DNA of 64,000 bases from Bacteroidota bacterium (GTDB lineage Bacteria; Bacteroidota; Rhodothermia; Rhodothermales; UBA10348). The stretch covers positions 1 through 64,000 of the forward strand of contig JAJCYR010000021.1 in the NCBI GenBank assembly GCA_029262775.1. The letters run 5' to 3'. Positions 21,515-38,650 of the stretch are shown one piece after another. Position 1 is the stretch's first letter; each line of letters starts with the position of its first letter. Position numbers and translations under genes: made by a program. The notes under the pieces were generated by a model, which saw only the letters and a list, made by a program, of their open reading frames with translations, was not told the DNA's origin and did not search any database.

Positions 21515-21595
21515 GGTCAAAGTGGGTAAGGAAACTGTTTTCTTTGTATTTTGTCCAGTCTGCGCCGTTTTTGGCGAGAACCACGATTCCTGAAC

Positions 21596-22948
21596 ATGTT
21601 CGACAATCTTTCAGAAAAGTTGGAGGGTGCGCTCAAGTCCATTGCTGGACAGGGGCGGATCACGGAGCTGAATATCGCGTCCACGATGCGCGAAATTCGG
21701 CGCGCTTTGCTGGATGCTGATGTCAATTTCCAGGTAGCGAAGGATTTCACGGATCGGGTCAGGGAAAAAGCGCTCGGCTCGGACGTGCTCACGTCCGTAT
21801 CGCCGGGGCAGCAGCTCGTCAAGATTGTCTATGACGAACTGGTCCATTTCCTGGGTGGTGAACAGCAGGATATCCATCTTGCCTCGCGCCCGCCGACCGT
21901 GATTCTTGTTGCTGGCCTCCAGGGATCGGGGAAAACCACGTTTTCCGGCAAACTTGCGAAGTACTTCAAAAGTCAGGGGCGCAGTCCCATGTTGGTTGCG
22001 GCTGACGTTTACCGTCCGGCAGCCGTGGATCAGCTGAGAATGCTCTCTGAACAGATCGGAGTGCCCGTATTCACGCTGGAAGAAGGAGGTCAGGTCGTTC
22101 AGGATCCCGTCCGAATAGCCCGCGAAGCCGTTTCCGAGGCGCGCAAGCAGGTACGCGACATGGTGATCATCGATACGGCAGGACGCCTTCACGTTGACCA
22201 GCGCATGATGGCCGAGGTGTCGGACATCCGCGCTGCCGTTGAGCCCGATGAAATCCTGTTCGTGGTCGACGCCATGACAGGGCAGGATGCGGTCAATACG
22301 GCTGTCGAATTCAACCGGCAGCTGAATTTTGACGGCGTCGTTCTGACGAAGCTTGATGGCGACACGCGCGGAGGGGCTGCTCTTTCCATTCGCCGCGTCG
22401 TCGACAAACCCATCAAATTCGCCTCTACAGGTGAAAAACTCGATGCCCTTACGCCGTTCTACCCGGAACGGATGGCGCAGCGTATTCTGGGAATGGGGGA
22501 CGTGGTCAGTTTCGTCGAGAAAGCCCAGGAGCAAATCGACGAAAAACAGGCAGAGAAGCTCCAGGGACGCATTCGGTCGGAATCATTCGACCTCAATGAT
22601 TTCCTGGACCAGCTTGGGCGCCTCAAGAAAATGGGCTCGCTGACCGACCTTGTGGGCATGATGCCCGGCGTCGGCAGCAAACTCAAGGACGTGGATATTG
22701 ACGACGACGCGTTTGTACATGTCGAAGCCATCATCCAGTCCATGACGGAGGAAGAGCGCAGCGACCCGGATCTGATCAACGGTAGCCGCCGCCGACGCAT
22801 TGCGCGGGGAAGTGGCGTTGAAGTCCGGGATGTGAACCAACTCCTGAAACAGTTTCGGGACATGAAAAAGATGATGAAGACCATGACCAAAATGATGGGC
22901 AAGGGCCGCTCGCTCGACCTGTCAAACCTCATGGGCCGCATCAACTGA
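21596..22948 (+). CDS. ffh: Signal recognition particle GTPase Ffh
   Basis: The protein is 450 aa from ATG 21596 ([19 protein letters not shown]). The N domain is followed by the G domain with [15 protein letters not shown] (G1, about residue 105), DTAGRLHVD (G3) and [14 protein letters not shown] (G4). The methionine-rich M domain binds 4.5S RNA and signal sequences ([18 protein letters not shown]). It targets inner-membrane proteins co-translationally through FtsY. It heads the ribosomal cluster ffh-rpsP-rimM-trmD-rplS, the same order as in E. coli. A TATTTTG box lies at 21547-21553. Confidence 0.97.
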
Positions 22949-22974
22949 ATCCATCAACTTATATTTGAATACTC

Positions 22975-23790
22975 GTGGCAGTTAAACTTCGATTGAAACG
23001 CATGGGTCGGCGCAAGCGCCCGGTCTATGCCATTGTTGCAACGGACGCACGTCATCCGCGCGACGGACGGTACATTGAAGATCTGGGTCGATACGCCCCG
23101 CTCAACGAACCCGCCACCGTCTCCGTGGCCGCCGATCGCGTCCACTACTGGCTGGACAACGGCGCCCAGCCGTCCGATACGGTCCGCTCGCTGCTCAAGA
23201 AGCAGGGCGTCCTTCTGGCATACAGCATGCAGAAGAACGGCGCATCGGAAGACGCTATCAGGGAGGCGGTCGAGGCCCACGTGGCGCGGCATGCATCCAA
23301 GTCATCCCAGGCGGCCAAGCTCACGCCGACCGAGCGCCGTGCCGCGGCTCTGAAGGCGGAAGAGGAGGTGGCCAAGGCGAAGGAAGCCGAACTGGCGAAG
23401 AAACGGGCCGAAGAGGAGGCTGTCGCCAAAAAGGCTGCCGACGAGGCGCGCAGGAAAGCCGAAGAGGAGCGCGCCGTTGCGGCCGCCGAAGCCAAGGCCG
23501 AACAGGAGGCTGCCAACAAGGCGCAGGCCGATGCGGAGAAGGCACCAGTCGCTGCCGCGGAGCCGAAGGCAGAAGCTGCCGCGGAGCCGAAGGCCGAAGC
23601 TGCCGCCGAGCCGAAGGCCGAAGCTGCCGCCGAGCCGAAGGCCGAAGCTGCCGCCGAGCCGAAGGCCGAAGCTGCCGCCGAGCCGAAAGTCGAAGCTGCC
23701 GCCGAGCCGAAAGCCGAAGCTGCCGCCGAGCCGAAAGCCGAAGCTGCCGCCGAGCCGAAGGCCAACGAGGACAAGGAAAAGTCCGCCTGA
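22975..23790 (+). CDS. rpsP: 30S ribosomal protein S16 with long repetitive C-terminal tail
   Basis: The protein is 271 aa with a GTG start (reads MAVKLRLKRMGRRKRPVYAIV). The first 80 residues or so are canonical S16 (GRYIEDLGRYAPLNE). The remaining 190 residues are a charged Ala/Glu/Lys region, probably a long helix or coiled coil, ending in nine near-identical octapeptides of type AAAEPKAE. S16 is usually about 80-90 aa. C-terminal extensions are known in Bacteroidota, but this one more than triples the length. It lies 26 bases after ffh and 24 before rimM. Confidence 0.95.
   Translation: MAVKLRLKRMGRRKRPVYAIVATDARHPRDGRYIEDLGRYAPLNEPATVSVAADRVHYWLDNGAQPSDTVRSLLKKQGVLLAYSMQKNGASEDAIREAVEAHVARHASKSSQAAKLTPTERRAAALKAEEEVAKAKEAELAKKRAEEEAVAKKAADEARRKAEEERAVAAAEAKAEQEAANKAQADAEKAPVAAAEPKAEAAAEPKAEAAAEPKAEAAAEPKAEAAAEPKAEAAAEPKVEAAAEPKAEAAAEPKAEAAAEPKANEDKEKSA
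23551..23766 (+). repeat. Nine tandem 24-bp units in rpsP
   Basis: Nine units of consensus GCTGCCGCCGAGCCGAAGGCCGAA run without gaps, each encoding AAAEPKAE-type octapeptides. One unit has Val for Ala, and the last ends in AAC. The near identity at third codon positions shows recent expansion by slippage or unequal recombination, so unit number may vary between strains. Confidence 0.97.
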
Positions 23791-23814
23791 TCACCGCTAT
23801 ACGGGGCACGATTC

Positions 23815-24336
23815 ATGGCACACCAACTACGCCAGATTGGCCGGATTGTCCGGCCGCATGGTGTTCGGGGTGAGCTGAAGGTGGCCCCGGAAACGGACCG
23901 GCCGGAGATCTATCTGGATCTTCAGGCGGTCCTGGTTGGCTCGGATAACGAGTCGGCTGTGTCCTTTGACATATTGTCTGCCAATGTGGTCCCTTCACGA
24001 CACGGTGTTACGGCTATCGTTCAGTTGAAGACAGTATCTTCGCGGAATGAAGCCGAGGCGCTGGTGGGACGACTCGTTTTCGCGAGAGATGCCGATTTGC
24101 CAGGCCTCGCCGATGATGAGTTCTACTACAATGACGTGATCGGACTGCCAGCTGTAGATCAGCATGGCGTTCTGCTGGGCACGATCAAGGATATCCTCGA
24201 AGCGCCTGCCCAGGACAAACTGGTCATTTCCAGATCCGGGCGAGCAGATGTGCTGGTTCCCCTTGTGCCTGCTTTCATTGGCAGCGTATCGGGCGACCAG
24301 GTCGTCATCCATACCATCGAAGGTCTCTTCGACTGA
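23815..24336 (+). CDS. rimM: Ribosome maturation factor RimM
   Basis: The 173-aa protein has the RimM N-terminal domain (QIGRIVRPHGVRGELKV) and a PRC-barrel C-terminal half with YYNDVIGLPAVDQHGVLLGTI and VLVPLVPAFIGSV. It assists late assembly of the 30S head and binds S19. Its placement between rpsP and trmD is the conserved order of this operon. The start MAHQLRQIGRI agrees with the family. Confidence 0.94.
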   Translation: MAHQLRQIGRIVRPHGVRGELKVAPETDRPEIYLDLQAVLVGSDNESAVSFDILSANVVPSRHGVTAIVQLKTVSSRNEAEALVGRLVFARDADLPGLADDEFYYNDVIGLPAVDQHGVLLGTIKDILEAPAQDKLVISRSGRADVLVPLVPAFIGSVSGDQVVIHTIEGLFD

Positions 24337-24350
24337 CCGCCGGACGGCTC

Positions 24351-25037
24351 ATGCGCATTGATATCATAACGGCTTTACCCCACCTTGTGGAGTCACCGCT
24401 CTCCCACAGCATTGTGGGGCGGGCGCGGGCTGCTGGTCTTCTCGATGTGCACATACACGATTTGCGGTCGTTCGGCTTGGGACGCTACCGACAAATCGAC
24501 GATGAGCCGTACGGGGGGGGAGCAGGAATGGTGCTCAAGGTCGAGCCGCTGTTCGATTGCCTGAAAGCGGTAATGGCGGAATCTCCGGACATACCGGTAG
24601 ACGAGGTTATCTACATGACCCCCGATGCGCAGGTGTTGACGCAGGCCACGGTCAATGGGCTCACGCTCAAAAGCCGGTTGGTCGTAATTGCCGGTCACTA
24701 CAAAGGGATTGACCAGCGCGTACGCGATGCGGTTGTGACTATGGAAATCTCGATCGGCGACTACGTCCTGAGTGGGGGGGAACTACCCGCATGTGTGCTT
24801 GTTGACGCGCTCGCTCGACTGATTCCGGGGGTCATTACGGACGCGGAGTCGGCGCTGACCGATTCGTTCCAGGATGGACTTCTCGATGCGCCCATGTACA
24901 CGCGTCCAGCCTCATACCGGGGAATGGACGTTCCGAACGTGCTGCTCAGCGGAAACCACGAATTCATCCGGGAGTGGAGAGAACGCATGCGTGTGGAAAA
25001 AACACGGCGCATCCGGCCCGACATGCTCGGCGATTGA
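24351..25037 (+). CDS. trmD: tRNA (guanine-N1)-methyltransferase TrmD
   Basis: The 228-aa protein methylates G37 of tRNAs using S-adenosylmethionine, preventing frameshifting. It starts MRIDIITALPHLVESPL. The SAM-binding trefoil knot contains VIAGHYKGIDQRV and GDYVLSGGELPACVLVDALARLIPG. The substrate-binding segment RQIDDEPYGGGAGMVLK is intact. It is 14 bases downstream of rimM and 63 bases upstream of rplS, where a separate promoter may lie. Confidence 0.97.
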   Translation: MRIDIITALPHLVESPLSHSIVGRARAAGLLDVHIHDLRSFGLGRYRQIDDEPYGGGAGMVLKVEPLFDCLKAVMAESPDIPVDEVIYMTPDAQVLTQATVNGLTLKSRLVVIAGHYKGIDQRVRDAVVTMEISIGDYVLSGGELPACVLVDALARLIPGVITDAESALTDSFQDGLLDAPMYTRPASYRGMDVPNVLLSGNHEFIREWRERMRVEKTRRIRPDMLGD

Positions 25038-25067
25038 CACATTCATTGGCAGACAGTACCTATTTTC
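25034..25067 (+). promoter_or_regulatory. Candidate promoter before rplS
   Basis: TTGACA (25034-25039, overlapping the trmD stop), a 17-base spacer and TACCTATTTTC (25057-25067) lie about 35-65 bases before the rplS ATG. The -35 matches the sigma-70 consensus exactly, and the -10 is a fair match. It would allow rplS and the downstream genes to be expressed apart from trmD. Confidence 0.45.
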
Positions 25068-25100
25068 ACTTTATTCTGAGCCCGAATTGCGAGGTATACC

Positions 25101-25451
25101 ATGGCAACTGACGTCATGAACATGATTGAAGAGTCGCAGAAGCGCGACGATATCCCTGTTTTTACGACAGGCGACACCGTGAATGTGCACGTACGCGTCG
25201 TGGAAGGCGACAAAGAGCGTATCCAGCAGTATCAGGGAGTTGTTCTCGGCTTCAAGGGCTCAGGTGCGCGCCGTACGTTCACTGTACGCAAAGTCTCGAA
25301 CAACGTGGGCGTTGAGCGTATTTTCCCCGTCTTCTCCCCTAAGATTGCCAAGATTGAGCGGGTTCGGGAAGGAAGTGTTCGTCGTGCCAAGCTCTACTAC
25401 CTGCGCGATCGCCGCGGCAAGGCTACCCGTATCAAGGAGCGTCAGCGCTAG
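25101..25451 (+). CDS. rplS: 50S ribosomal protein L19
   Basis: The 116-aa protein matches L19 in length and sequence: [57 protein letters not shown] and the basic C-terminus [21 protein letters not shown]19 lies at the 30S-50S interface. It is the last gene of the ffh-rpsP-rimM-trmD-rplS order, but the transcript probably continues into the MqnA-like gene seven bases on. Confidence 0.97.
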
Positions 25452-25458
25452 CCGCGCC

Positions 25459-26190
25459 GTGCGTCTTGCAATCTGGGATACGCCTTTCACAGAGCCGGTG
25501 GGACGCGCCTTCGATCCGGTGCCAGGTGCGTCCGTATTTCGGGGCTCGTCGGTAGAGGTGGTAGCCAGACTCGCGGCGAATCAGGCCGATGTGGCGCTGG
25601 TGCCTGCCGACCATGCGCTTACGGTTTCGGATAATGTCGACATCCTGCCTTCGGTAGCGGTGTCCATGTGGCTGGCCGGGAGCACGCGCCTCGTCCTCCC
25701 GAGTGGCCTTTCAAGTCCGGTACTGTCCCTGCATACGGGACCTGAATCCCTGTACATGACGCTGCTGGCGCGAATTGTCCTGAAGGAGCATTACGGAAAG
25801 CAGATGCTCATCCTGGACGGAGGAGACGTGCCTCTCGATCCTCCCTGGATGCCCTTGGTGGTTGCAGAAGGAGACGGCGAACCGTTTGAGATCGACCTCG
25901 CACAGGAATGGTTGGAAATGGCTCACTATCCGCTCGTCGCGGGACTGTTCATCACGCGCAAGGGGCAGGCTACGAGTGAGGTGATTCGGAGTGTCCGCGA
26001 TGTTGTCGTGGCCTTCGACGACGAGCGCAGCGACCAGGAGCGCGAGATGATTCGTCTTCGCCTCGACGACGTGTCGGTTGCCAGCCTCAGTGAACTCGCT
26101 GACTATTTGTTTTATTACGGGATGACACCCGAGATTCCAGGTGTCACGTTTGCGAGCTTGGATGAGGAAGAAGACGGGCCACACGAATGA
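25459..26190 (+). CDS. MqnA/MqnD/SBP-like protein (menaquinone-type, divergent)
   Basis: The protein is 243 aa with a GTG start at 25459 (reads MRLAIWDTPFTEPVGRAF), seven bases after rplS; the longer track ORF starts inside rplS. The pattern of a periplasmic-binding-protein fold with NQADVALVPADHAL in the first lobe and FEIDLAQEWLEMAHYPLVAGLFITRKG in the second resembles MqnA (chorismate dehydratase of the futalosine pathway). The N-terminal YLNS-like motif of MqnA, which holds a conserved Asn, is replaced here by PFTE. It may therefore be a divergent or non-catalytic paralog. No other menaquinone gene is nearby. Confidence 0.55.
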   Translation: MRLAIWDTPFTEPVGRAFDPVPGASVFRGSSVEVVARLAANQADVALVPADHALTVSDNVDILPSVAVSMWLAGSTRLVLPSGLSSPVLSLHTGPESLYMTLLARIVLKEHYGKQMLILDGGDVPLDPPWMPLVVAEGDGEPFEIDLAQEWLEMAHYPLVAGLFITRKGQATSEVIRSVRDVVVAFDDERSDQEREMIRLRLDDVSVASLSELADYLFYYGMTPEIPGVTFASLDEEEDGPHE

Positions 26191-26642
26191 CGGACACGCG
26201 CAAGATTGTTACCAAAAACAGAAAAGCCACCCACGAATACCACATCGAGGAGCGTGTGGAAGCCGGCCTCGCGCTGCGCGGCACCGAGGTCAAGGCGCTC
26301 CGGCATGGCAAGGCCAACCTGCAGGAAGCATTCTGCGCCCTCGAAGGGGGGGAAATGAAGCTCCTCCAATGCCACATTGCGCCGTACGAGTTCGGTAATC
26401 GCCTGAATCACGACCCGTTGCGGCCACGCACGCTGCTCATGCATCGTCGCGAGATTGACCGGTTTGCCAAAGCAACGCAACAGAAAGGGTATACCATCAT
26501 TCCATTGTCCATCTACTTCAAAGACGGGCGGGCGAAGGTTGAAATCGGGCTGGCCAAGGGCAAGAAGTTGTACGACAAGCGGCAGGATATAGCCGATCGG
26601 GATACCAAACGGCGGATGGACCGGTTGTCCAAGGTGCGTTGA
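26187..26642 (+). CDS. smpB: SsrA (tmRNA)-binding protein SmpB
   Basis: The 151-aa protein has the SmpB beta-barrel sequence: KNRKATHEYHIEERVEAGLAL, RGTEVKALRHGKANLQEAF, and a basic C-terminal tail KGKKLYDKRQDIADRDTKRRM that inserts into the empty ribosomal mRNA channel. It delivers tmRNA to stalled ribosomes for trans-translation. The tmRNA gene itself is not seen in this window. The start overlaps the MqnA-like stop (ATGA). Confidence 0.97.
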   Translation: MTDTRKIVTKNRKATHEYHIEERVEAGLALRGTEVKALRHGKANLQEAFCALEGGEMKLLQCHIAPYEFGNRLNHDPLRPRTLLMHRREIDRFAKATQQKGYTIIPLSIYFKDGRAKVEIGLAKGKKLYDKRQDIADRDTKRRMDRLSKVR

Positions 26643-26720: not shown

Positions 26721-28814
26721 ATGATTTCTGTAACTGTCGTTGTCAGGCTCTCTCTGCGCACGCTGCTGCTGGTAGCGGTCGTGATGGCGCTGCAGGTACC
26801 AACATCGGCGGGCAGGCAGGTGTTGACAGGCGATGAGGTACCAGTGAGTGTGGCCCTTCGTCAGGCCTACGAGGCAATGCGCGGGCCGGTGGAAGGGCGT
26901 GAAAGAGGCGAAGTCCAGCTCAAGGAAGTGCTCTACGCCTATCCGTCGCATAAACGGGCCCGGGAAGTGGACCTCTGGCGCCGATACCGGTTTGGCGGAT
27001 CGTTCATGCCGGTGATTCGTCATGAACTCAGGGAGCGCGCCGCGACGCGCCTGATAGAGGAAGATTCATCGAGCGCCGGGGCGCATCTTGTGCTCGGGCT
27101 GCTGGAAATGGACCTGTTCCGGGAGGCTCACAACCGTGTGCAGCTACCCTCCCGCCTGGCGGAGGGAAACCGGATCGACTCGTGGTTGGGGTTCGTCGAT
27201 GTGGCCATTGAGAAGACAGGCGATCAAACGCTGGTCTCCCTGTTTGACAGCGAGTTACTGGGTGCCCGCGCCCGCCTCGTGCGCGATGATGACGTGGCGA
27301 CGAGCCATGCCGATCGCGCCCGGGAGTATCTGACCACCGCCCTTGCGGACCCTTTCTGGGCAGCCGAAGCCGGACGAAGCTTGGCGGAACTGGGTATCAG
27401 AACGCGTGACGGGGAGCTGATCGCGCGTGTTGCGGCCCGCTTGGCAGCGCATGGAGAGTTCGAGGCACAGGCCCAGGAATACTGGACGCTGCATTACATC
27501 CTGCGTGGGCAGGTCGATAGAGCGCTCGAAAGTCATGCAGCGGCCGTCGAGGCCATGGACACCAACCGGCGGGTGCAGGTCGAGGATCTGCAGGTACTGG
27601 CACCTCCCTCTCAGGTCGCCGCGGATTCGACGCGTGACAACTGGTTGGACAGGGATCCGCTGTGGATGACCGAGGGCAACGAACGGGCGGCAGAGCATTT
27701 GGCACGTGTCGTTGCCGTGGAGCTGCTCTTCGGAACGCCTGACGACCCGGGCCGGGCTCTTTTTTCCGATCCCGGGCAACTTGTCCTCCGGTACGGAATC
27801 CCCTCAGAGACCGTGCAGTTTTCGTCTGACGTGGACGGGTATATGCTGCTCAACTATCCGGATCAATATTACCTGTTTCACGACATGGCCAAAGCCGGGA
27901 AATGGATTTTTTTCAGTAGCTCGGCGGCCGCGCTCACCGGACCCAGGAGTGTTGCCCCGCAGTGGGAACGGGATTTCGCCCTGCGGGCACGGGAAGCATT
28001 TGAACTCCAACCTGATATTGGCCGCGTGCCCAGCCTGACTCGGACGGATATGGACACAGCCTGGTACGTTTTTCCAGACGGCGAGCAGCTGTCTGGGGGT
28101 GGACAGATGTCGGTCGTAGCGGCTTGGTGTGCACCGGAAGATTTCGCGGACCTCGTCGTCGAAATGGGGATGTATGCCGTTGCCGACGGGTCTCAGCGTA
28201 TCCGCCATCTCAGGGAATGGAAGGCGTCCGTGCGCAGGAATCAACAGGGGGCGACCTGCCATGCCGATACGCAGCATGCAGACGTGCCGGTGGGTATGTG
28301 GCGGCTCTCGCTCGAAGCGGTGGCGAGGGACGCGTACGCCGTGTCGCGGCACCGTGTCGCTGTATCGACCATGAGTAGCGTGGTTCCGGCCCGTCTGATT
28401 GTGGACCGGGAGCCGGGTGCGGCGCCGCCGGCCGGGTTCTTTGAGCGGGGAGACGTCTGGATTCAGCCGCTGGTGCCGGCGAAAATCCGTGCGGACGAAC
28501 CGGTGTCGGTCTATGCCGAAGTGACCGGGATTCCACCGGCCACAGGATTGATATTGATCGAGGCTGTACTGCGCAAAAGGCGGGACGAGACGCGCAGACG
28601 GTGGTTTCGGGGGGGGCAGCAGGAAGCCGTGTCGGTCCGGTTCAAACAGGACGTGACGGGCGCGCGGGCGGCTGTTCGCGTTGCACTCGACGTGTCGAAT
28701 GTGGAGCCGGGAGCCTATGACCTTGTAGTGCGTGTGACGGGCGGTGATGAGGAATCGTATGCAACCGAAAACCGGACGACGCTTATCGTATTGGAGGATG
28801 TGGATGCGAGATAA
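26721..28814 (+). CDS. GWxTD-domain-like exported protein A
   Basis: The 697-aa protein starts with a hydrophobic signal segment (TLLLVAVVMALQVPTSAG). Residues about 45-300 are helical, TPR-like repeats (RGEVQLKEVLYAYPSHKRA, AHLVLGLLEMDLFREAHN). At about 308-365 comes WLDRDPLWMTEGNERAAEH, then VVAVELLFGTPDDPG and LVLRYGIP, the GWxTD-domain framework. The eponymous motif itself is degenerate, with no GWxTD but ALFSDPG in its place. C-terminal beta-rich domains follow (VSVYAEVTGIPPATGLILIE). Function is unknown. It is paralogous in layout to protein B at 32039 and opens the cassette. A TATACT sequence lies only six bases before the ATG, hinting at a very short leader. Confidence 0.7.
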   Translation: MISVTVVVRLSLRTLLLVAVVMALQVPTSAGRQVLTGDEVPVSVALRQAYEAMRGPVEGRERGEVQLKEVLYAYPSHKRAREVDLWRRYRFGGSFMPVIRHELRERAATRLIEEDSSSAGAHLVLGLLEMDLFREAHNRVQLPSRLAEGNRIDSWLGFVDVAIEKTGDQTLVSLFDSELLGARARLVRDDDVATSHADRAREYLTTALADPFWAAEAGRSLAELGIRTRDGELIARVAARLAAHGEFEAQAQEYWTLHYILRGQVDRALESHAAAVEAMDTNRRVQVEDLQVLAPPSQVAADSTRDNWLDRDPLWMTEGNERAAEHLARVVAVELLFGTPDDPGRALFSDPGQLVLRYGIPSETVQFSSDVDGYMLLNYPDQYYLFHDMAKAGKWIFFSSSAAALTGPRSVAPQWERDFALRAREAFELQPDIGRVPSLTRTDMDTAWYVFPDGEQLSGGGQMSVVAAWCAPEDFADLVVEMGMYAVADGSQRIRHLREWKASVRRNQQGATCHADTQHADVPVGMWRLSLEAVARDAYAVSRHRVAVSTMSSVVPARLIVDREPGAAPPAGFFERGDVWIQPLVPAKIRADEPVSVYAEVTGIPPATGLILIEAVLRKRRDETRRRWFRGGQQEAVSVRFKQDVTGARAAVRVALDVSNVEPGAYDLVVRVTGGDEESYATENRTTLIVLEDVDAR

Positions 28815-31077
28815 ACTGGCTTTCTGCACACTTATCGTGCTGCTGTCGGGGGTGGGACAGTCCCTCAATGTGGTCGCGCAGGTGGCCATTGTTCGGGGAA
28901 CGGTGACGGACGTAGCGTCTGGAGAGACGCTTCCGGGCGTCAACGTGGTGCTGTTTACCGGTGACGGTGATCTGGTCAAGGGGTCGGTGACCAACGAATC
29001 GGGGGTGTATGCCCTTTCGCGGATTTCACGCGGCGTGTATACGCTCAGGGCCACATTTGTGGGATTCGATGCCTGGGAGCGCAGCGTCCTGATTTCGACT
29101 GACGAGCGGACCATTGTGAACATTGAGCTTGAGACGACGCAGTCTGAGCTTGGAGAAGTCCTGGTGGAAGGCGACCGGCGGGACGGCATTGTGAAGGTGA
29201 CTGCCGGCCAGACGACCGTACTGCCCACCGATATTGACCTGGTGCCCTCGCCGGATGTGTCGGGTGACCTGGTCAATTATCTGACTGCCATGCCCGGGAT
29301 TGTGTCGGTGGGCGACCGCGGCGGCCAATTGTTTGTCCGCGGGGGAGAGCCGTGGCAGAACCTGATCCTGCTCGACGGCATGTGGGTCTACCAACCGTTT
29401 CACGTGCTTGGATTCTTTTCGGCGTTTCCGAGTGACATCATTTCGTCTGTCGATGTCTACGCCGGTGGATTTCCAAGCCAGTTCGGAGGGCGCCTGTCCT
29501 CGGTGATTGATGTGCGCAGCCGCAACGGCAATAAGCGATCATACGAGGGGTCGGCATCGATTGCGCCGTTTATTACCGGATTTACGCTGGAGGGACCGAT
29601 CGATACGAGTGGCAGGGTGTCCTTTCTGACATCGTACCGGGAGTCTGTCATTGAGCAGGGAGCTTCCCGTCTGGTGTCCGACGACCTGCCGTACTCTTTT
29701 GGTGACTTCTTCGGGAAAATCCACGCACTCCCGTCAGGGAATTCACAGCTGTCCATCAGTCTGCTCACGACCCACGACGAGGGTGCCGTGTTTGAAGGCA
29801 CAGCGGCTGAGCCGGCCGAGCAGGTGGAGTGGAAGAACACGGCAGCGGGTGTGCGCTATACGGTGCTTCCGAATGTTTTGCCGGCCATGGCCCAGTTCGG
29901 AATCAGCGTATCGAAGCTGGAATCAGACCAGAGTGTAGGGACGGCCAATTCCCGCAGCACCGAGATCCAGTCGGTCAACACCAACGCCGACATCACGTAC
30001 TTCAATGGCGATACGACGGTCCGGTGGGGCGTATTTGCGCGCTCCCTGCGTGCCGAGTCGAACCTCGGAGGGCTATTTCAGAACGTGGAACTGCGCGAGG
30101 AGTTTTTGACCGAAGTAGGTGCCTACGTGGAGCCGGAGTGGGAAGTGCGGGGTGGATGGGATGTGCGGCTGGGTCTGCGCGCCCACAGTTTTCCGAGCAA
30201 GAGTGTGAGTTTTCTGGAGCCCAGGCTCAGGCTTGTCCGGACGGGGCTCGTGAACGAGATCTCGCTGGCGGCGGGTATTTACCACCAGGAAATCGTGGGA
30301 CTGTTGGACCGGCGCGATGCGGCCGGCGTGTTTACGGCGTGGGCGGCCGTTCCCGACGGGTTCAGTGTGCCCTCGTCGGCGCATCTTATTGCCGGGTACC
30401 AGCGAACATTGTCAGACGCGCTGGAAATTGGCGTCGAGGTATACGGGAAGCAGTTACGCAACCTGTTCATTCCGGAATGGACGGCGTTCCCGCGGTTTAC
30501 GACGAACCTCCAGGAAGCAGATGGGGAAGTACTCGGTGGTGATTTCCGGTTGAACTATCAGACGGGCCCGTTCGGGGTATTCGTGACCTATGGGCTGTCG
30601 CGTACCCGCTACAACGCCAAACAGGAATCCCTGCCCATCTGGTTCGGGACCGATAAACTGGAATTCCGTCCGGCCCACGACCGGCGGCACCAGATCAATG
30701 TGGTTTCGAGGCTCGATACGAGGCTGGCAAATTTTTCGATGCGGTGGCAATTCGGCTCCGGTCTTCCGTTCAACCAGGCGCAGGGATTTGACGGGTTCGT
30801 GCTGCTCAACGGGAATGTGGACGTAACAACGGAATCGGGCAGCCGGCGCGTCATTTTCGATGAGCCCTTCGGCGGCGAACTGCCGACCTACCACCGGCTC
30901 GATGTATCGGCCGAAAAGTCGGTACAGTTGACGGGGCGCGGTTTGTTGACACTCCAGGCGGGTGTAATCAACATCTACGACCGATCGAACCTGTTTTTCC
31001 TGGACGTCTTCACGCAGAACCGGGTAGACCAGATACCCATCATTCCGAACTTCGGACTCAAGTTGGAATTCCAGTAG
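28804..31077 (+). CDS. TonB-dependent receptor
   Basis: The protein is 757 aa from ATG 28804, overlapping the end of gene A by 11 bases; ATG 28798 is an equal alternative. Order of parts: signal peptide (LAFCTLIVLLSGVGQ), CarboxypepD_reg-like domain (IVRGTVTDVASGETLPGVNV), plug (VNYLTAMPGIVSVGDRGGQ, LFVRGGEPWQNLILLDGMWV, VDVYAGGFPSQFGGRLSSVI), then a beta-barrel ending in the aromatic terminus LKLEFQ that suits BAM insertion. It imports a ligand across the outer membrane using TonB energy. The ligand is unknown; the plug is of the 'FRGG' type common in Bacteroidota. Two GWxTD proteins and a lipoprotein surround it. Confidence 0.88.
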   Translation: MRDKLAFCTLIVLLSGVGQSLNVVAQVAIVRGTVTDVASGETLPGVNVVLFTGDGDLVKGSVTNESGVYALSRISRGVYTLRATFVGFDAWERSVLISTDERTIVNIELETTQSELGEVLVEGDRRDGIVKVTAGQTTVLPTDIDLVPSPDVSGDLVNYLTAMPGIVSVGDRGGQLFVRGGEPWQNLILLDGMWVYQPFHVLGFFSAFPSDIISSVDVYAGGFPSQFGGRLSSVIDVRSRNGNKRSYEGSASIAPFITGFTLEGPIDTSGRVSFLTSYRESVIEQGASRLVSDDLPYSFGDFFGKIHALPSGNSQLSISLLTTHDEGAVFEGTAAEPAEQVEWKNTAAGVRYTVLPNVLPAMAQFGISVSKLESDQSVGTANSRSTEIQSVNTNADITYFNGDTTVRWGVFARSLRAESNLGGLFQNVELREEFLTEVGAYVEPEWEVRGGWDVRLGLRAHSFPSKSVSFLEPRLRLVRTGLVNEISLAAGIYHQEIVGLLDRRDAAGVFTAWAAVPDGFSVPSSAHLIAGYQRTLSDALEIGVEVYGKQLRNLFIPEWTAFPRFTTNLQEADGEVLGGDFRLNYQTGPFGVFVTYGLSRTRYNAKQESLPIWFGTDKLEFRPAHDRRHQINVVSRLDTRLANFSMRWQFGSGLPFNQAQGFDGFVLLNGNVDVTTESGSRRVIFDEPFGGELPTYHRLDVSAEKSVQLTGRGLLTLQAGVINIYDRSNLFFLDVFTQNRVDQIPIIPNFGLKLEFQ

Positions 31078-31081
31078 AGCC

Positions 31082-31975
31082 ATGCGAATCCTTCAGGTTG
31101 TGATGTTTCTGGCTGCCACCGTGGCGGCTGCCGTGCTGATTTCAGGATGCGAGGAGAATGTCAGTCCGATCGTACCGACGGAGCGCGTGTTTACGATGTG
31201 GGGTTTTTTGGACCCGACGGTGACCAGCCAAAAGGCCCGCGTCTTCCGGATTGAGTCTGTGCTTGAACCGACCCGCCCCGAGCCACTCGGAGCCACGATG
31301 TCGGTGACCGATGTGGCCTCGGGCAGCGCAACCGTATGGCGTGATTCGGTGATTCTGTTTCCGGACGGGTTCTATGGACACATCTACCTTGCCGAGCAGG
31401 AGATTGGTTTTGACCGGGAGTACCTGGTGGAGCTCGAGACGCTGGACGGCCTTGGTTCGTCGGCGCGTGTGCGAACGCCTGCCGAGACTTCTCCCGTAGT
31501 GTCTGAGATCCAGAATGTCCGCTTCAACGTCAAATTCCGTGTGCGTTGGGATAACGCGCCGCAGCTTCTGGACCTCAAGGTGCGCTATCATGTGGCCTTC
31601 CGCAGTCGTGGATCGGGCGCGGCGTTTACGTCCGGAGCCGTCACCCTGCGGACCGGAGCCGTGGAAACCGCAGCGGACGGAACGCCTGTCGTGCTGGTTG
31701 AACCAACGTCTGACCTGGGCGACATTCTGCAGCTGCTCAACCTGCAGGCAGGGCGCGACGAGATGGCATTGGATTCGATAACGGTCCTGCCATTCGTGGG
31801 GTCGGAGGAGTGGCGCTCGCCGACGGGTGATTTTGATCCGGAAGTGCTGGTACAGCCGGGGACATTGTCCAATGTGGACAATGGATTCGGGTTTTTCGGT
31901 TCGGGATTTGAAGATGCTTTTGTTGTTCACCTGCCCGAGGATGCCGTAGAGAATGCTGGTTTTACGGTTCGCTGA
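31082..31975 (+). CDS. Outer-membrane lipoprotein, DUF4249-like
   Basis: The 297-aa protein has a lipobox LISGCEEN with Cys about residue 23, so it is a lipoprotein. The body is beta-rich: VFTMWGFLDPTVTSQKARVFRI, ATMSVTDVASGSATVWRDSV and YLVELETLDGLGSSARVRTPAE follow the pattern of DUF4249 proteins, which pair with TonB-dependent receptors. DUF4249 members are usually longer (about 350-400 aa). It starts four bases after the receptor. It may be the surface lid or accessory lipoprotein of that receptor. Confidence 0.62.
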   Translation: MRILQVVMFLAATVAAAVLISGCEENVSPIVPTERVFTMWGFLDPTVTSQKARVFRIESVLEPTRPEPLGATMSVTDVASGSATVWRDSVILFPDGFYGHIYLAEQEIGFDREYLVELETLDGLGSSARVRTPAETSPVVSEIQNVRFNVKFRVRWDNAPQLLDLKVRYHVAFRSRGSGAAFTSGAVTLRTGAVETAADGTPVVLVEPTSDLGDILQLLNLQAGRDEMALDSITVLPFVGSEEWRSPTGDFDPEVLVQPGTLSNVDNGFGFFGSGFEDAFVVHLPEDAVENAGFTVR

Positions 31976-32038
31976 TTTGTCCCGAATCAGTTTGAACTTC
32001 GCGGAGTACCATGGCATGGATAAAACCGTACTAACAGC

Positions 32039-34522
32039 ATGATCATGATGAAGCGTTCGTTCTTCTTTGCAGTAATCCTGCTGCTGGGTGCAATAACCCT
32101 GGTCCAGGCTCCCTTGGCCCCGAATGCCACAGCGCAGTCCACCACGGACCCCATGACCGATGGCATTCTGTCGTTCCGCAACGGTGATTACAAGCAGGCG
32201 GTGTCGTTCTTCGACGCGGCTCTTGAGGCCGACCCGCAGAATGCGGAGGCACACTTCCTGCTGGCTCGAATTTTTTGGGAGACCCCTCTCAGGAACGTGA
32301 GGCGTGCGGGAGACGAGTTGGAAAAAGCCATTGACCTCGAGCCCGAAAATGTGCAATACCTCGTAGCCTCTCTGCAGCAGAACAAGGCCGATGCATCGAA
32401 TTTCATCACGGAAAAAATCCGCGAGAGCAAGCGGCGCGATCTGGCTCGTACTATTCTTGAACTGGATCCGGACAACTCGTTCGCGCACGAGGAAATGGGC
32501 AGTACCTACATTCGTGATTTCTGGAGGTACCGCAATGCGCTCATGTACCCGGCGCTGACCTTCAATGAATACAAGTACCGGAGTTCGACGACGATTGATC
32601 CGATGGCCGGCTACCTGGTGGATCAGGTACGGGAGTTTGACGAGGCCCAGGGTAATCCGGAGCCAGAGCCCCTGAATACGGAACTCTTAGGTGCGGTCGA
32701 GGCCAATTATGATCCGAATTCGATCTTCATGGCCGATGAGTTCGATGTGGAAACATTGAGGCGGCAGGGTATTCCTGTGATGGACCTCTCAAGCCGGGCC
32801 CAGAAAGCCTATGACAAGGCCATCATGCACCTCGGAAAGGCACTGGAAATGGATCCGCGGCAGCGCTCGGTGTATGATCACCTCATGGAAATCTATGCGC
32901 TCAAGGGAGAGTACGAGGAGGCCATGAGCATGCTGTCGCAGATGTACGTGTTTTTCCCGGAGGACAACAAACTCTGGACGTACCTGGGCTATACCCACTA
33001 CAACCTGGGCAACATGGATGCAGCCTCCAAGTCCTTCGAGACGGCATTCAAGTACATGACCCCGGAGGAACAACAGGCCTACGAGGGGTTGGAGCACATT
33101 CTTCCGCGAAATGAGAAGAAGGCCTACGAGGCGGACAGGATTGCCTACGCAGCGCGCTTCTGGACCAGCAAGGATCCGCGGTATCTGACGCCGTACAATG
33201 AGCGCAGAATGGAGCACTATGTTCGTCTGACCTACGCCGACCTGCTCTATGGCGCCCCCGATCTGGACCTGCGGGGTTGGAATACGGAGCGGGGCGCCAT
33301 TCTCGTGCGGTATGGTCCGCCCCAGGGAGATGTCGTGATCATTCCCCGGAGTACGTCTGGTGTCAGACAGGGCGTGGCACCGGTGAGTGGATCCCAGTCC
33401 GATCCAACGGGAAGTACGGGTCTGGCTCTCGAAGTGGGTCGTAACGGGTCCGGTATGGACCTTGCAGAAGAAGCAAACACGTTCAACATCTGGGATTACG
33501 GTGAATTCAAGTTTGTTTTTGAGGATCCTTTCCGCAACGGTGAATACCGACTGTACAGCCCATCTGCGTCTGAAATTGCAGACGGGTCGCTTCCATGGGC
33601 CAATGATTACACCATCAAGGCCAAAGAAACCTTTCTGGAGACGCCAGAGCGTTACGAATACGAGGCGCCGGGTCGCCAGGTAGAGCTTCCCTATATGGTG
33701 TCGTCCTTCCGAGGACAGAATGGGCAGACCGATGTGATTGTCAACTATGGCATTCCTATTACGGAAAACCTGAAGGACGGACAGGACGTGATAAACATCA
33801 CGGCCAGCACCGGTACATTTGTGGTTGCCGGGAACCGGGACATGCTCGTCGAGCGCCGGAACGTGATTTATGGTCTGAGGACGGAGCAGATCGTTCCCTT
33901 CATTGACACGCAGTTGTGGATCAATACGGTGGAAGCGGAGGTCCCGCCCGGAAAACATGAGGTCTCGGTCGAATTCGAGACGGCGGGTGGCGGCACGGTC
34001 GCCGTGCAGCGCCGTGAGGTTGATATTCATGACTTCTCGGGTGACCGCCTGGCCATGTCGGACATCCTGCTGGCCTATCGGATTGAAGACACGGCCAACG
34101 GAAAGCCCATCATTCCCTCGGACGTGGTCCGGCGTAACCTGTCCATTCAGCCGGCCCCGTGGTCAGTATTCGGTATTGATCAGCCCATTTATCTCTACTT
34201 CGAGGTGTACAACCTGGAAATGGGCGAGGACGGCACGGCCCGATACGACATCGAGGCGACCCTCACGCCAAAAGAAGGTGGAAATGCGGTAGGTCGTACC
34301 ATAGGACGCCTGCTGCGTCGCGACGCCGAGGGTGTGTCTGTACGACTACCCATCACGGTGCCATCTGAAACGGATGGCCAGTTCCTGATCCTCTCGGCAG
34401 AGAACCAGGCGCCGGGTCTCTACCTGCTGTCGGTCAAAATCCGGGACACAGTCTCTGGAGATACTGTGGATATGGAGCAGGACCTGTTCCTGGACGAACC
34501 GCTGTCTTCGGCTCAGAATTGA
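32039..34522 (+). CDS. GWxTD-domain protein B with TPR repeats
   Basis: The 827-aa protein has a signal peptide ([26 protein letters not shown]). TPR repeats lie at about residues 40-110 ([20 protein letters not shown]) and 255-345 ([35 protein letters not shown]). The GWxTD domain is at about 395-500, with the conserved core [18 protein letters not shown] and [15 protein letters not shown]. The C-terminal 300 residues are beta-rich. TIGR-type GWxTD proteins occur in Bacteroidota and Acidobacteria and have no known function. Start choice among MIMMKRSF is loose: ATG 32039 or 32048. It overlaps convergent purE by ten bases. Confidence 0.82.
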
Positions 34523-35013
34523 GATTGCGTCTTACTATCCATGTCTGAAACGAGGTCGCGCAGATTCTTCCTGTAAGACTCCATGGCATCGAGCAGGTCG
34601 TCCCGGCTGGCTGCAAGGACTTGAACGGCCAATAATCCCGCATTTTTGGCACCGCCAATAGCGACGGTGGCGACCGGCACGCCACCGGGCATCTGGACGA
34701 TGGAGAGCAGCGAATCCATTCCATTGAGATGCCGACCGGGTACGGGCACCCCGATGACCGGTAGCGGCGTCGAGGCGGCAATCATGCCAGGCAGGTGAGC
34801 GGCTCCCCCTGCGCCGGCGATGATTACCCGGATTCCACGGGACCTGGCGGTTTTGGCGTATTCTGTCATGACGTCCGGCGTCCGGTGTGCCGAGAGTACC
34901 CGGACCTCGAACGAAATGCCAAACTCGTGGAGCACATGGGCGGCTTCCTCCATGACGGGCAGGTCCGAACTGCTTCCCATGGCAATACCAACGATGGGAT
35001 GTGTATCAGGCAT
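34513..35013 (-). CDS. purE: 5-(carboxyamino)imidazole ribonucleotide mutase
   Basis: The 166-aa protein is full-length class I PurE. It has [17 protein letters not shown], the active-site LSAHRTPD loop, [16 protein letters not shown] and [27 protein letters not shown]. It rearranges N5-CAIR (from PurK) to CAIR. It lies 14 bases downstream of purK, its pathway partner. Its stop overlaps the convergent GWxTD gene end by ten bases. Confidence 0.97.
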
Positions 35014-35027
35014 GATCTTTTTTCTGT

Positions 35028-36188
35028 TTACAGTTGGACATGGGCGGCGGCTTCCTCGGCCAGCTTCAGGGCCGCTTCGGTGGTCGAGGCCGTGACGGTG
35101 ACGTGCCCCATTTTGCGTTTCGGCCGCACCTCCCGCTTACCATAGATATGGATGGATGCGCCGGGTACCGCCATGGCCTCGCGCAGTCCTGTGGTACCGG
35201 CCATTCCGGACCGGTGGCCCAGAATGTTGACCATGGCCGCGGCCGGTACGCGTAGCGACGGGTCCCCGAGCGGCCAGCCCGAAACCGACCTCACATGGTT
35301 CTCGAACTGGGAGGTATGACAGGCCTCAATGGAAAAATGTCCCGTATTGTGGGGCCTGGGGGCCAGTTCGTTGACAAGGATGGAGCCGTCCTCAAGCTCG
35401 AAAAGCTCCACTCCCAAGAGCCCCACCGCATGGACCGCTTCAGCGGCACGCCGGGCGAGTTCCACAACACGGGCGGCCGTAGCCGAGGCGATAGGCGCCG
35501 GAGCCAGTACAGCATGGCACCGATGGTCTTGCTGAATGGTGTGAACGGCCGGATACGTGACGTGCGCGCCCGAAGCTGAACGGACCACCACGATAGCCAA
35601 CTCCCGTCGAAAGGGAATAAAGGCCTCGACGAGCAGTCCATCATCGGCCGCAAGTGCATCCCAGGCCGGACCTATGTCTTCGCTCGCGTACGCCGTGGCG
35701 TTCCCATATCCGTCGTAGGACCCCTCGAATTTCTTGAGGAGTACCGGGAATCCAAACGAACGGGCGGCATCGTGCGCTTCGTCCAGACTGTGGCAGCACA
35801 CATAATCGGCCACGGGAATACCGGCGCTGCGCAGCGCATTCTTCTGGCGCCCCTTGTGCCGAATGGTATGAAGCGTGTTTCCGGATGGATACACAGGAAT
35901 GCGCCCGGCTGCTACCTCCTCGGCCCGGTCGGCAGGAGCCCATTCGCTTTCCACCGTGATGACATCACACCGTTCCACGAATCGTTCGAGTACGTTCATG
36001 TCTGTCCAGTCGCCCACATGGGCATGTCCAATTCCCTCAACAGGGGCTGCAGGGCTGGGCGAGAGTGTGTGCACATCAAAACCGAGCCGGAGTGCGGCCA
36101 GGGCAGACATGCGTCCAAGCTGCCCGCCTCCGAGGATGCCAATAGTGGGAAAGGTACTCATGTACGGCAGGTCAGGGCGTGTTAACAT
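35028..36188 (-). CDS. purK: 5-(carboxyamino)imidazole ribonucleotide synthase
   Basis: The protein is 386 aa from ATG 36188, whose A overlaps the ftsK stop as TAATG, suggesting coupling. ATG 36161 ([18 protein letters not shown]) is the alternative and fits the family N-terminus better. The ATP-grasp enzyme converts AIR plus bicarbonate to N5-CAIR. Motifs: [33 protein letters not shown], and [18 protein letters not shown], which is the PurK metal and substrate motif. It feeds purE directly downstream. Confidence 0.95.
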
Positions 36189-38650
36189 TACGTGGCAGAA
36201 CCACGCAGGAATTCGTCGAGCGCTTCGAGGTCGTCCATGTATACCGAGCGTGCCTTGGAGCCCTCAAACGGGCCAACGATGCCGGCATCTTCAAGCTGAT
36301 CGACAATACGGGCGGCACGTGCGTATCCAACAGATAATTTTCGCTGTAACAGGGATACGGATCCCTGCTGTGCCCGAACAATGATTCGGGCGGCCTCGTC
36401 GAACAGTTCATCCCGGTCCTGGGATGCGCTCCGGCCCGTGCCGCCCGTGGACTCCGATTCGGTTTCAATGGAGGGCAGGATGTAGGGCCCTGGCCCTTCC
36501 TGGTCCGCGATGTAGCCGGTAACGCGGTCTATTTCGGCAAGCGATACGAACGGGCCCTGTAGTCGCATGATACGACTGCCCAGCATGTAGAGCAGGTCAC
36601 CGTTACCGACGAGTCCTTCCGCGCCATTCTGGTCGAGAATGGTTCGGGAGTCGACTTTCGATGCTACCTGGTAGGCAACGCGTGCCGGGAAATTGGCCTT
36701 GATCAGGCCCGTGATGACATCGACGGACGGTCGCTGGGTGGCCAGGATCAAGTGAATACCCACGGCACGGGCCATCTGGGCAAGCCGGGCGATGGGCGCT
36801 TCAATGTCCTTGCCGGCGGTCATCATGAGATCGGCCAGCTCGTCGACCACGACCACGATGTAGGGGAGCAGCCGGTGGCCGCCCTCTTCGCTGAGACCTC
36901 CTTTCTGGAAGCGATCATTGTACTCGCGGATGGATCGGACGCCGGCCTCCTTGAGCAGGTCATATCTGAGTTCCATCTCCTTCTCACACGACTTGAGTGT
37001 TCCCAGGGCCTGGTGGAAGTCGGTGATGATGGCATCGTCGGCCTCGGGCGGCATGGCGACGTAGTGGGACGTGATCTGGGCGTAGACGGATAATTCGATC
37101 TTTTTGGGATCGATCATCACGAATTTGAGGAGCGATGGGGGGACGGAATAGAGCAGTCCGGCGATAAAGGTGTTGACACCAACCGATTTACCCGATCCGG
37201 TAGCACCCGCGATCAACATGTGCGGCAGTTTGGTGAGGTCCTGCAGCACGACTTCCCCTTCAATGGATTTTCCCATGATGAGGGGGAGTTCCATGGTGGT
37301 TTCCGAAAACGTGCGCGTTTCCACCACGTCACGGACCAGCACCAGCTCCCGGTGGCGGTTCGGAATTTCCACCCCGATGGCTGATTTGCCGGGAATGGGC
37401 GCGATCATGCGGATACCCCGGGCCGCAAGTGCCATGGCGAGATCGTTCTCGAGGGCGGTAATGCGGCTGATCTTGACCCCCGGGGCGGGTGTCAATTCGT
37501 AGAGTGTGACGGTGGGACCGACGATGGCATCGATTGAAATGATTTCGATGTTATACGTGGCGAGCTTGTCGAGCAGGACCTGCTTGTTGTCCTCGAGTTC
37601 GTCATAGTCGACCCGTGGTCCGGTGGACTCCGCCTCATTGAGAAGTTCTACGGGTGGGGTGACGAAGGCGTATTCTCCCGTCCGGAAGGCACCCTGTTTG
37701 CTGCGCCGGGCCTTTTCCTCGACAATCTGTTCGTGCACGCGTATTTCTACGTCGCGTTCGGCGCCATCCGTGCTCTCCGCGCCATTCTGCCCGTCCTGTG
37801 GGGCCCGTGGTGCCGAAACAGTACGGGGTGCCTGGCGTCGCTCGGATTCACCCGTCATGGCTTCCCGGCGCGTGGCAGCGGCGGCTTCGGCGCGCAGCTT
37901 CTCCCGCTCGCCGGCGCTTTCCCTCGTCTGTCTGGCGGTCGTCCTGCGTTCTTCCTCCAGCAACTGGCTGCGCCGTTCGGTACGGGCTTGCCGCCGGGCC
38001 GAGCGCTGTAGCCACCACCTCTCGACAGTCTGGTAGGCGCTTCGGAACAGGTGCTCGAGGCGATCCATCGTGCGCTGTATGTCCCGGTCCACAAGTAGCA
38101 GTGCCGCCAGGATGATGATCAGGATGAGCAGCAGCAGCGATCCTGTCTGTCCAAACACGCTCTGCATCCAGGCGGCCGATCCCGTGCCCCACAAACCGGT
38201 CCATGCCTGGATGTCCGCATCCATCCGGGTCGACATCCAGCCAAAGAGCGTGGAGAGTACGAAAGAGGTGCCGAGAACAAGTAGTGTGGTAGTTTTGAGC
38301 GATTCAAGACGGCGGTGGCGGAGCAGGGCGTAGCCCCATGCCACGAGGAGGCCGGGCCAGAGGACGACGGCATACCCGAGGAAAGAGGGGATCAGAATGC
38401 GGCTCAACCATGCTCCGGTAAGGCCCAGCGCATTGACAACCGTTCGGTCGCCTGGCCGGAGCAGCAGGTCGAACGAAAAGCGCTGGGCCACGGGGTTGTC
38501 GGCTGCGTCGTAGGTGAGAAGGGCGAGCAGCGTGAGCAGGCCAATTCCCAGGACGGCCACACCCAGCACTTCCTGTTTCCGCTCACCGGACACAAACGGA
38601 CTTGCCGGATCCGCCTTTCTGACCGTGCGCTTTTTGATTGTCGATGCCAT
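36188..38650 (-). CDS. ftsK: DNA translocase FtsK/SpoIIIE
   Basis: The 820-aa protein has an N-terminal basic segment and about four membrane helices within residues 25-195 (LGVAVLGIGLLTLLALLTY to LLLLILIIILAALLLV). A charged linker of about 130 residues follows. The alpha-beta motor has Walker A IAGATGSGKSVGVN (about residue 484), VVVVDELADLMM and LATQRPSVDVITG. The C-terminal gamma winged helix (AQQGSVSLLQRKLSVGYARA) reads KOPS-like sequences. It pumps chromosome ends across the division septum. Its neighbours gcvT and purK are unrelated metabolically but closely spaced. Confidence 0.97.
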   Translation of the reverse strand: MASTIKKRTVRKADPASPFVSGERKQEVLGVAVLGIGLLTLLALLTYDAADNPVAQRFSFDLLLRPGDRTVVNALGLTGAWLSRILIPSFLGYAVVLWPGLLVAWGYALLRHRRLESLKTTTLLVLGTSFVLSTLFGWMSTRMDADIQAWTGLWGTGSAAWMQSVFGQTGSLLLLILIIILAALLLVDRDIQRTMDRLEHLFRSAYQTVERWWLQRSARRQARTERRSQLLEEERRTTARQTRESAGEREKLRAEAAAATRREAMTGESERRQAPRTVSAPRAPQDGQNGAESTDGAERDVEIRVHEQIVEEKARRSKQGAFRTGEYAFVTPPVELLNEAESTGPRVDYDELEDNKQVLLDKLATYNIEIISIDAIVGPTVTLYELTPAPGVKISRITALENDLAMALAARGIRMIAPIPGKSAIGVEIPNRHRELVLVRDVVETRTFSETTMELPLIMGKSIEGEVVLQDLTKLPHMLIAGATGSGKSVGVNTFIAGLLYSVPPSLLKFVMIDPKKIELSVYAQITSHYVAMPPEADDAIITDFHQALGTLKSCEKEMELRYDLLKEAGVRSIREYNDRFQKGGLSEEGGHRLLPYIVVVVDELADLMMTAGKDIEAPIARLAQMARAVGIHLILATQRPSVDVITGLIKANFPARVAYQVASKVDSRTILDQNGAEGLVGNGDLLYMLGSRIMRLQGPFVSLAEIDRVTGYIADQEGPGPYILPSIETESESTGGTGRSASQDRDELFDEAARIIVRAQQGSVSLLQRKLSVGYARAARIVDQLEDAGIVGPFEGSKARSVYMDDLEALDEFLRGSAT

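Follow-up and report, generated by a model that had tools for sequence, protein, structure and literature searches.

Pairs made up of a TonB-dependent transporter and a DUF4249 lipoprotein have been described before, and for BT2172/BT2173 both the pairing and the functional linkage are published, disruption of either gene having similar consequences (PMC11003636). The pair discussed here, found in a window of 64,000 nucleotides (the whole stretch of DNA that was analysed), is of this already known type: as at BT2172/BT2173 (PMC11003636), a receptor gene is followed by one for a DUF4249-type lipoprotein and the two are conserved as a pair, a likeness of arrangement, and the difference is that the window's pair sits between GWxTD genes. 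With SusC/SusD loci it has in common a TonB receptor, a lipoprotein and an N-terminal CarbopepD_reg domain; however, the window receptor scores 38.2 bits against the SusC/RagA model TIGR04056, well under the cut-off of 368.25, and no SusD, glycoside hydrolase or regulator/sensor was recognised near the window pair, whose neighbours are housekeeping genes. As for the GWxTD proteins (TIGR04514, PF20094), no paper naming them was found in the literature that we searched, and the two at this locus differ from the ordinary members (Ig-GWxTD) in being ordered TPR-GWxTD-Ig.

Our ORF calls agree with an earlier note on this DNA that the four genes lie on one strand, with intergenic gaps of -11, 4 and 63 bases (Table 1). 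The first of these figures takes an in-frame ATG at 28804 as the start of the receptor, whose longest ORF runs from 28744, and at the far end purE overlaps gene B by 10 bases. All four are real genes, since dN/dS lies between 0.03 and 0.23 across them in congeneric genome pairs. Such tight gaps suggest co-expression, so that an optional functional link is possible and co-transcription of all four is plausible; promoter and terminator scans of the locus gave no signal above chance.

Table 1. Features of the locus, with window positions, and further GWxTD addresses in relatives
Feature	Position	Strand	Description
Upstream housekeeping block ffh - rpsP (long tail) - rimM - trmD - rplS - mqnA-like - smpB	21551..26642	+	
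Gene A	26721..28814	+	697 aa; exported, with TPR-like, degenerate GWxTD and Ig-like parts; tandem paralogue of B, diverged
TonB-dependent receptor	28804..31077	+	CarbopepD_reg_2 + Plug; DUF4249-paired type
Lipoprotein	31082..31975	+	lipobox LISGC, then EE; DUF4249-like partner of receptor
Gene B	32039..34522	+	exported TPR - GWxTD - two Ig/FnIII-like sandwiches; position conserved over most of the order
Downstream convergent purE - purK - ftsK block	34513..38650	-	
GWxTD genes at recurring ftsY/fmt and asnS addresses	L172:3781-7292, L173:8553-11599, L236-L250, L253-L255		

The explanation that we favour, at a probability of roughly two in three, is that two independent two-gene modules have come to share one locus, an importer pair being nested between B and a decaying duplicate of it, A. 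The first module, receptor plus lipoprotein, would be an outer-membrane importer in which TonB-ExbBD energy opens the receptor plug, while the lipoprotein, with its lipobox followed by two acidic residues, would be membrane-anchored, probably facing outwards, and would capture or lid the ligand. In the second, B, built from a TPR superhelix, a GWxTD segment and two Ig-like sandwiches, would be an old envelope component with a function of its own, perhaps that of a scaffold. In one family the importer pair is flanked by A and B, and it would probably ride on the same transcript as they do, with no physical partnership being obligatory.

Domain scans support a TonB receptor, as the earlier note had it: the Plug domain (PF07715) scores 31.1 bits against a cut-off of 23.9 and CarbopepD_reg_2 is also above its cut-off. 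No Pfam match to the barrel appears at E<=1, but the C-terminal half is nonetheless strongly conserved. The proposal of a DUF4249-like lipoprotein fared less simply, in that the window protein alone matches DUF4249 (PF14054) only weakly, at 16.8 bits against a cut-off of 28.5, while 15 of 16 orthologues do match (best E 2.7e-9), and it is on account of these orthologues that we place the protein in a DUF4249-like family. That the pair is conserved is borne out by the published pairing (PMC11003636) and by our own counts, with the receptor profile and the lipoprotein profile each matched in 83 of 100 relatives and the lipoprotein gene directly following the receptor in about 50 loci, the only exceptions being contig or fetch edges. 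Some receptor loci carry several lipoprotein copies; for example, at L202:2734-6046 three DUF4249-like lipoprotein genes come in a row after a single receptor.

The two outer proteins are homologous over their full length (BLASTP E 3e-17; hhalign probability 100 over 714 columns), and their predicted structures share one layout, with helical TPRs first, then a mixed GWxTD segment and last a C-terminal half rich in beta structure (mean pLDDT 83 for A and 78 for B). The claim that both are GWxTD proteins holds for B, which reaches 47.9 bits against TIGR04514 (cut-off 28), and fails for A, a homologue of B that scores 16.9 bits and has lost the GWxTD motif, reading ALFSDPG where B has RGWNTERG. 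The domain order is swapped relative to the two ordinary GWxTD members of the window's genome (window versus L001 and L002): a profile of B matched to both finds the beta segment after GWxTD in B and before it in the ordinary members, clearly against the C42 protein and weakly against C54. Foldseek matches for A and B were to TPR superhelices, FnIII domains of RbmA, transglutaminases and arrestins, all with low TM-scores; an enzyme fold was considered and rejected, none of these being convincing and all being taken as generic TPR and beta-sandwich domains. The closest named orthologues of B are in Bacteroidota bacterium OFTM130 (92%) and Bacteroidetes bacterium CG12_big_fil_rev_8_21_14_0_65_60_17 (89%), and the named records with B orthologues are metagenome-assembled genomes of Rhodothermales and other Bacteroidota.

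Gene A is a tandem duplicate of B that is diverging and being lost. In congeneric genomes its dN/dS is 0.15-0.23, about five times that of the receptor and B (0.03-0.04), with the lipoprotein in between at 0.07-0.10; synonymous sites are near saturation in this comparison. B, by the same measure, is under strong purifying selection. Indeed, A is broken in one genome of the family (G002) and missing from three that keep receptor, lipoprotein and B (G010, G018 and G023), and this absence, together with the fast dN/dS, marks it as the dispensable member.

Gene order in relatives (Rhodothermales, Bacteroidota) was read from gene calls on 40 loci and then from about 90 loci, some of them overlapping, that were classified with profiles, the upstream ffh to smpB block serving as the anchor. 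The order A-receptor-lipoprotein-B occurs in 18 of the 27 genomes of the window's family (its own counted); its recurrence on a single contig in 13 of them, the window included, and in split form in five more (G006, G017, G020, G024 and G025, at contig ends or on separate contigs) means that it is not a chance arrangement. Elsewhere in the family, one contig is cut within the receptor (G026), B stands alone in four genomes (G004, G008, G009 and G014), and no strong match came from G005. In one case the cassette also reaches beyond the family: G047, of f11, has the four-gene order in two pieces, one contig end carrying smpB-A-receptor and another receptor-lipoprotein-B. The expectation of conserved synteny is thus upheld within the family, where B identity is 58-92% when the four-gene order is kept, and beyond it by that one genome only. 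What is conserved far more widely is B itself, found in most families of the order behind an ffh-rimM-trmD-rplS-(mqnA)-smpB block from which tyrS often separates it. In f2, f9, f11 and f12 A comes immediately before B, no gene intervening, and in f4, f6, f12, f14 and f15 B is accompanied by neither A nor receptor; no clear B orthologue was found in f3 and f13. In another order of the class (L256 and L257), the genes upstream of B include, in both genomes, one of moxR type alongside further long ORFs, those in L256 being a subtilase and a protein of about 718 aa without a Pfam match.

The pairs, too, have a life of their own. Most of them have no GWxTD neighbour, and at other addresses the neighbours of related pairs vary by genome and offered no clue to the ligand. 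When receptor and lipoprotein sequences were concatenated, the resulting tree grouped the cassette pairs of the family as a single clade (bootstrap 100), with the G047 pair as a weakly supported sister (62 concatenated, 68 for the receptor alone) in a position not recovered in the lipoprotein tree. The clade next to these consists of pairs found at unrelated addresses, in genomes that lack the cassette, G004, G008 and G009 of the same family among them. A lipoprotein search found no second copy in that clade's score range in the family's cassette genomes, so both clades look like one orthologous group; judging from scores and tree, a single group of pairs would thus have members that lie within the A-B locus and, in other genomes, members at different sites.

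Against two separate modules stand the persistence of the four-gene order despite wide divergence, in two-thirds of the family's genomes and again in the distant G047, and the finding that A was never seen at the locus without the receptor pair among the 27 genomes. One could go further in the other direction and suppose that the genes are merely neighbours, the order persisting through synteny of the whole housekeeping region with no shared regulation or function. The flanking genes are indeed equally conserved and related receptor pairs do sit at unrelated addresses, but at least shared transcription is favoured by the overlap of start and stop codons and by the survival of the order over long divergence, and we regard neutral co-localisation as unlikely, if the best of the alternatives.

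Less probable still is the proposal that B is a general factor for outer-membrane biogenesis or quality control, a TPR/Ig chaperone or scaffold with many clients, this receptor among them, for which co-transcription would be helpful and not required. It would sit comfortably with separate modules and give B its own function, and it draws on B's conserved position in most of the order, its strong purifying selection, its exported TPR plus Ig architecture and the addresses at which GWxTD genes are found. Besides ffh-smpB, two of these recur in sampled genomes of several families, ftsY-GWxTD, often with fmt next, and GWxTD-asnS, and all three adjoin SRP or translation genes, a link that may simply reflect housekeeping clusters being the syntenic part of genomes. 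On the other side, the families lacking a clear B orthologue imply that B is not essential in general, and no known biogenesis factor was matched. Were GWxTD proteins secretion- or envelope-linked, this would supply a function for a widespread domain that has none known so far.

The earlier note had proposed a single four-protein import complex, with A and B as periplasmic or surface partners capturing or processing the receptor's ligand, and this we now consider improbable: tight gaps and order are kept across most genomes of one family and again in G047, and TPR and Ig-like folds would suit protein-protein contact, but A-B occurs without receptor in four other families and B alone in many, receptor and lipoprotein mostly do without GWxTD neighbours, and the receptor is retained where A is lost or broken. 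A dedicated four-protein system is unsupported because each half exists and persists without the other in most lineages, and GWxTD genes are placed independently elsewhere, with 1-9 matches in each of the 60 relatives tested, an outcome that the earlier note had itself named as refuting its proposal. The more general lesson is that tight gene order inside one family is weak evidence of a complex until the separability of its modules has been checked. Similarly doubtful, and if anything a shade more so, is the hybrid idea that TPR-GWxTD proteins form an order-wide envelope-biogenesis family tied to SRP/translation clusters, from which one family has recruited A and B into a periplasmic partnership with a TonB-DUF4249 importer.

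Outside the class, GWxTD-TPR proteins adjoin other genes, such as purL-type ones, and not receptors; the genes that follow GWxTD at L260 and L262, from a different family in the phylum, had been suspected of encoding receptor and lipoprotein and proved to be purL-type and BrkB genes. Finally, within the upstream block of the window, rpsP (22975-23790) encodes 271 aa with a long Ala/Glu/Lys-rich tail containing repeats, and in many relatives' loci the rpsP position is occupied by ORFs of about 150-360 aa.
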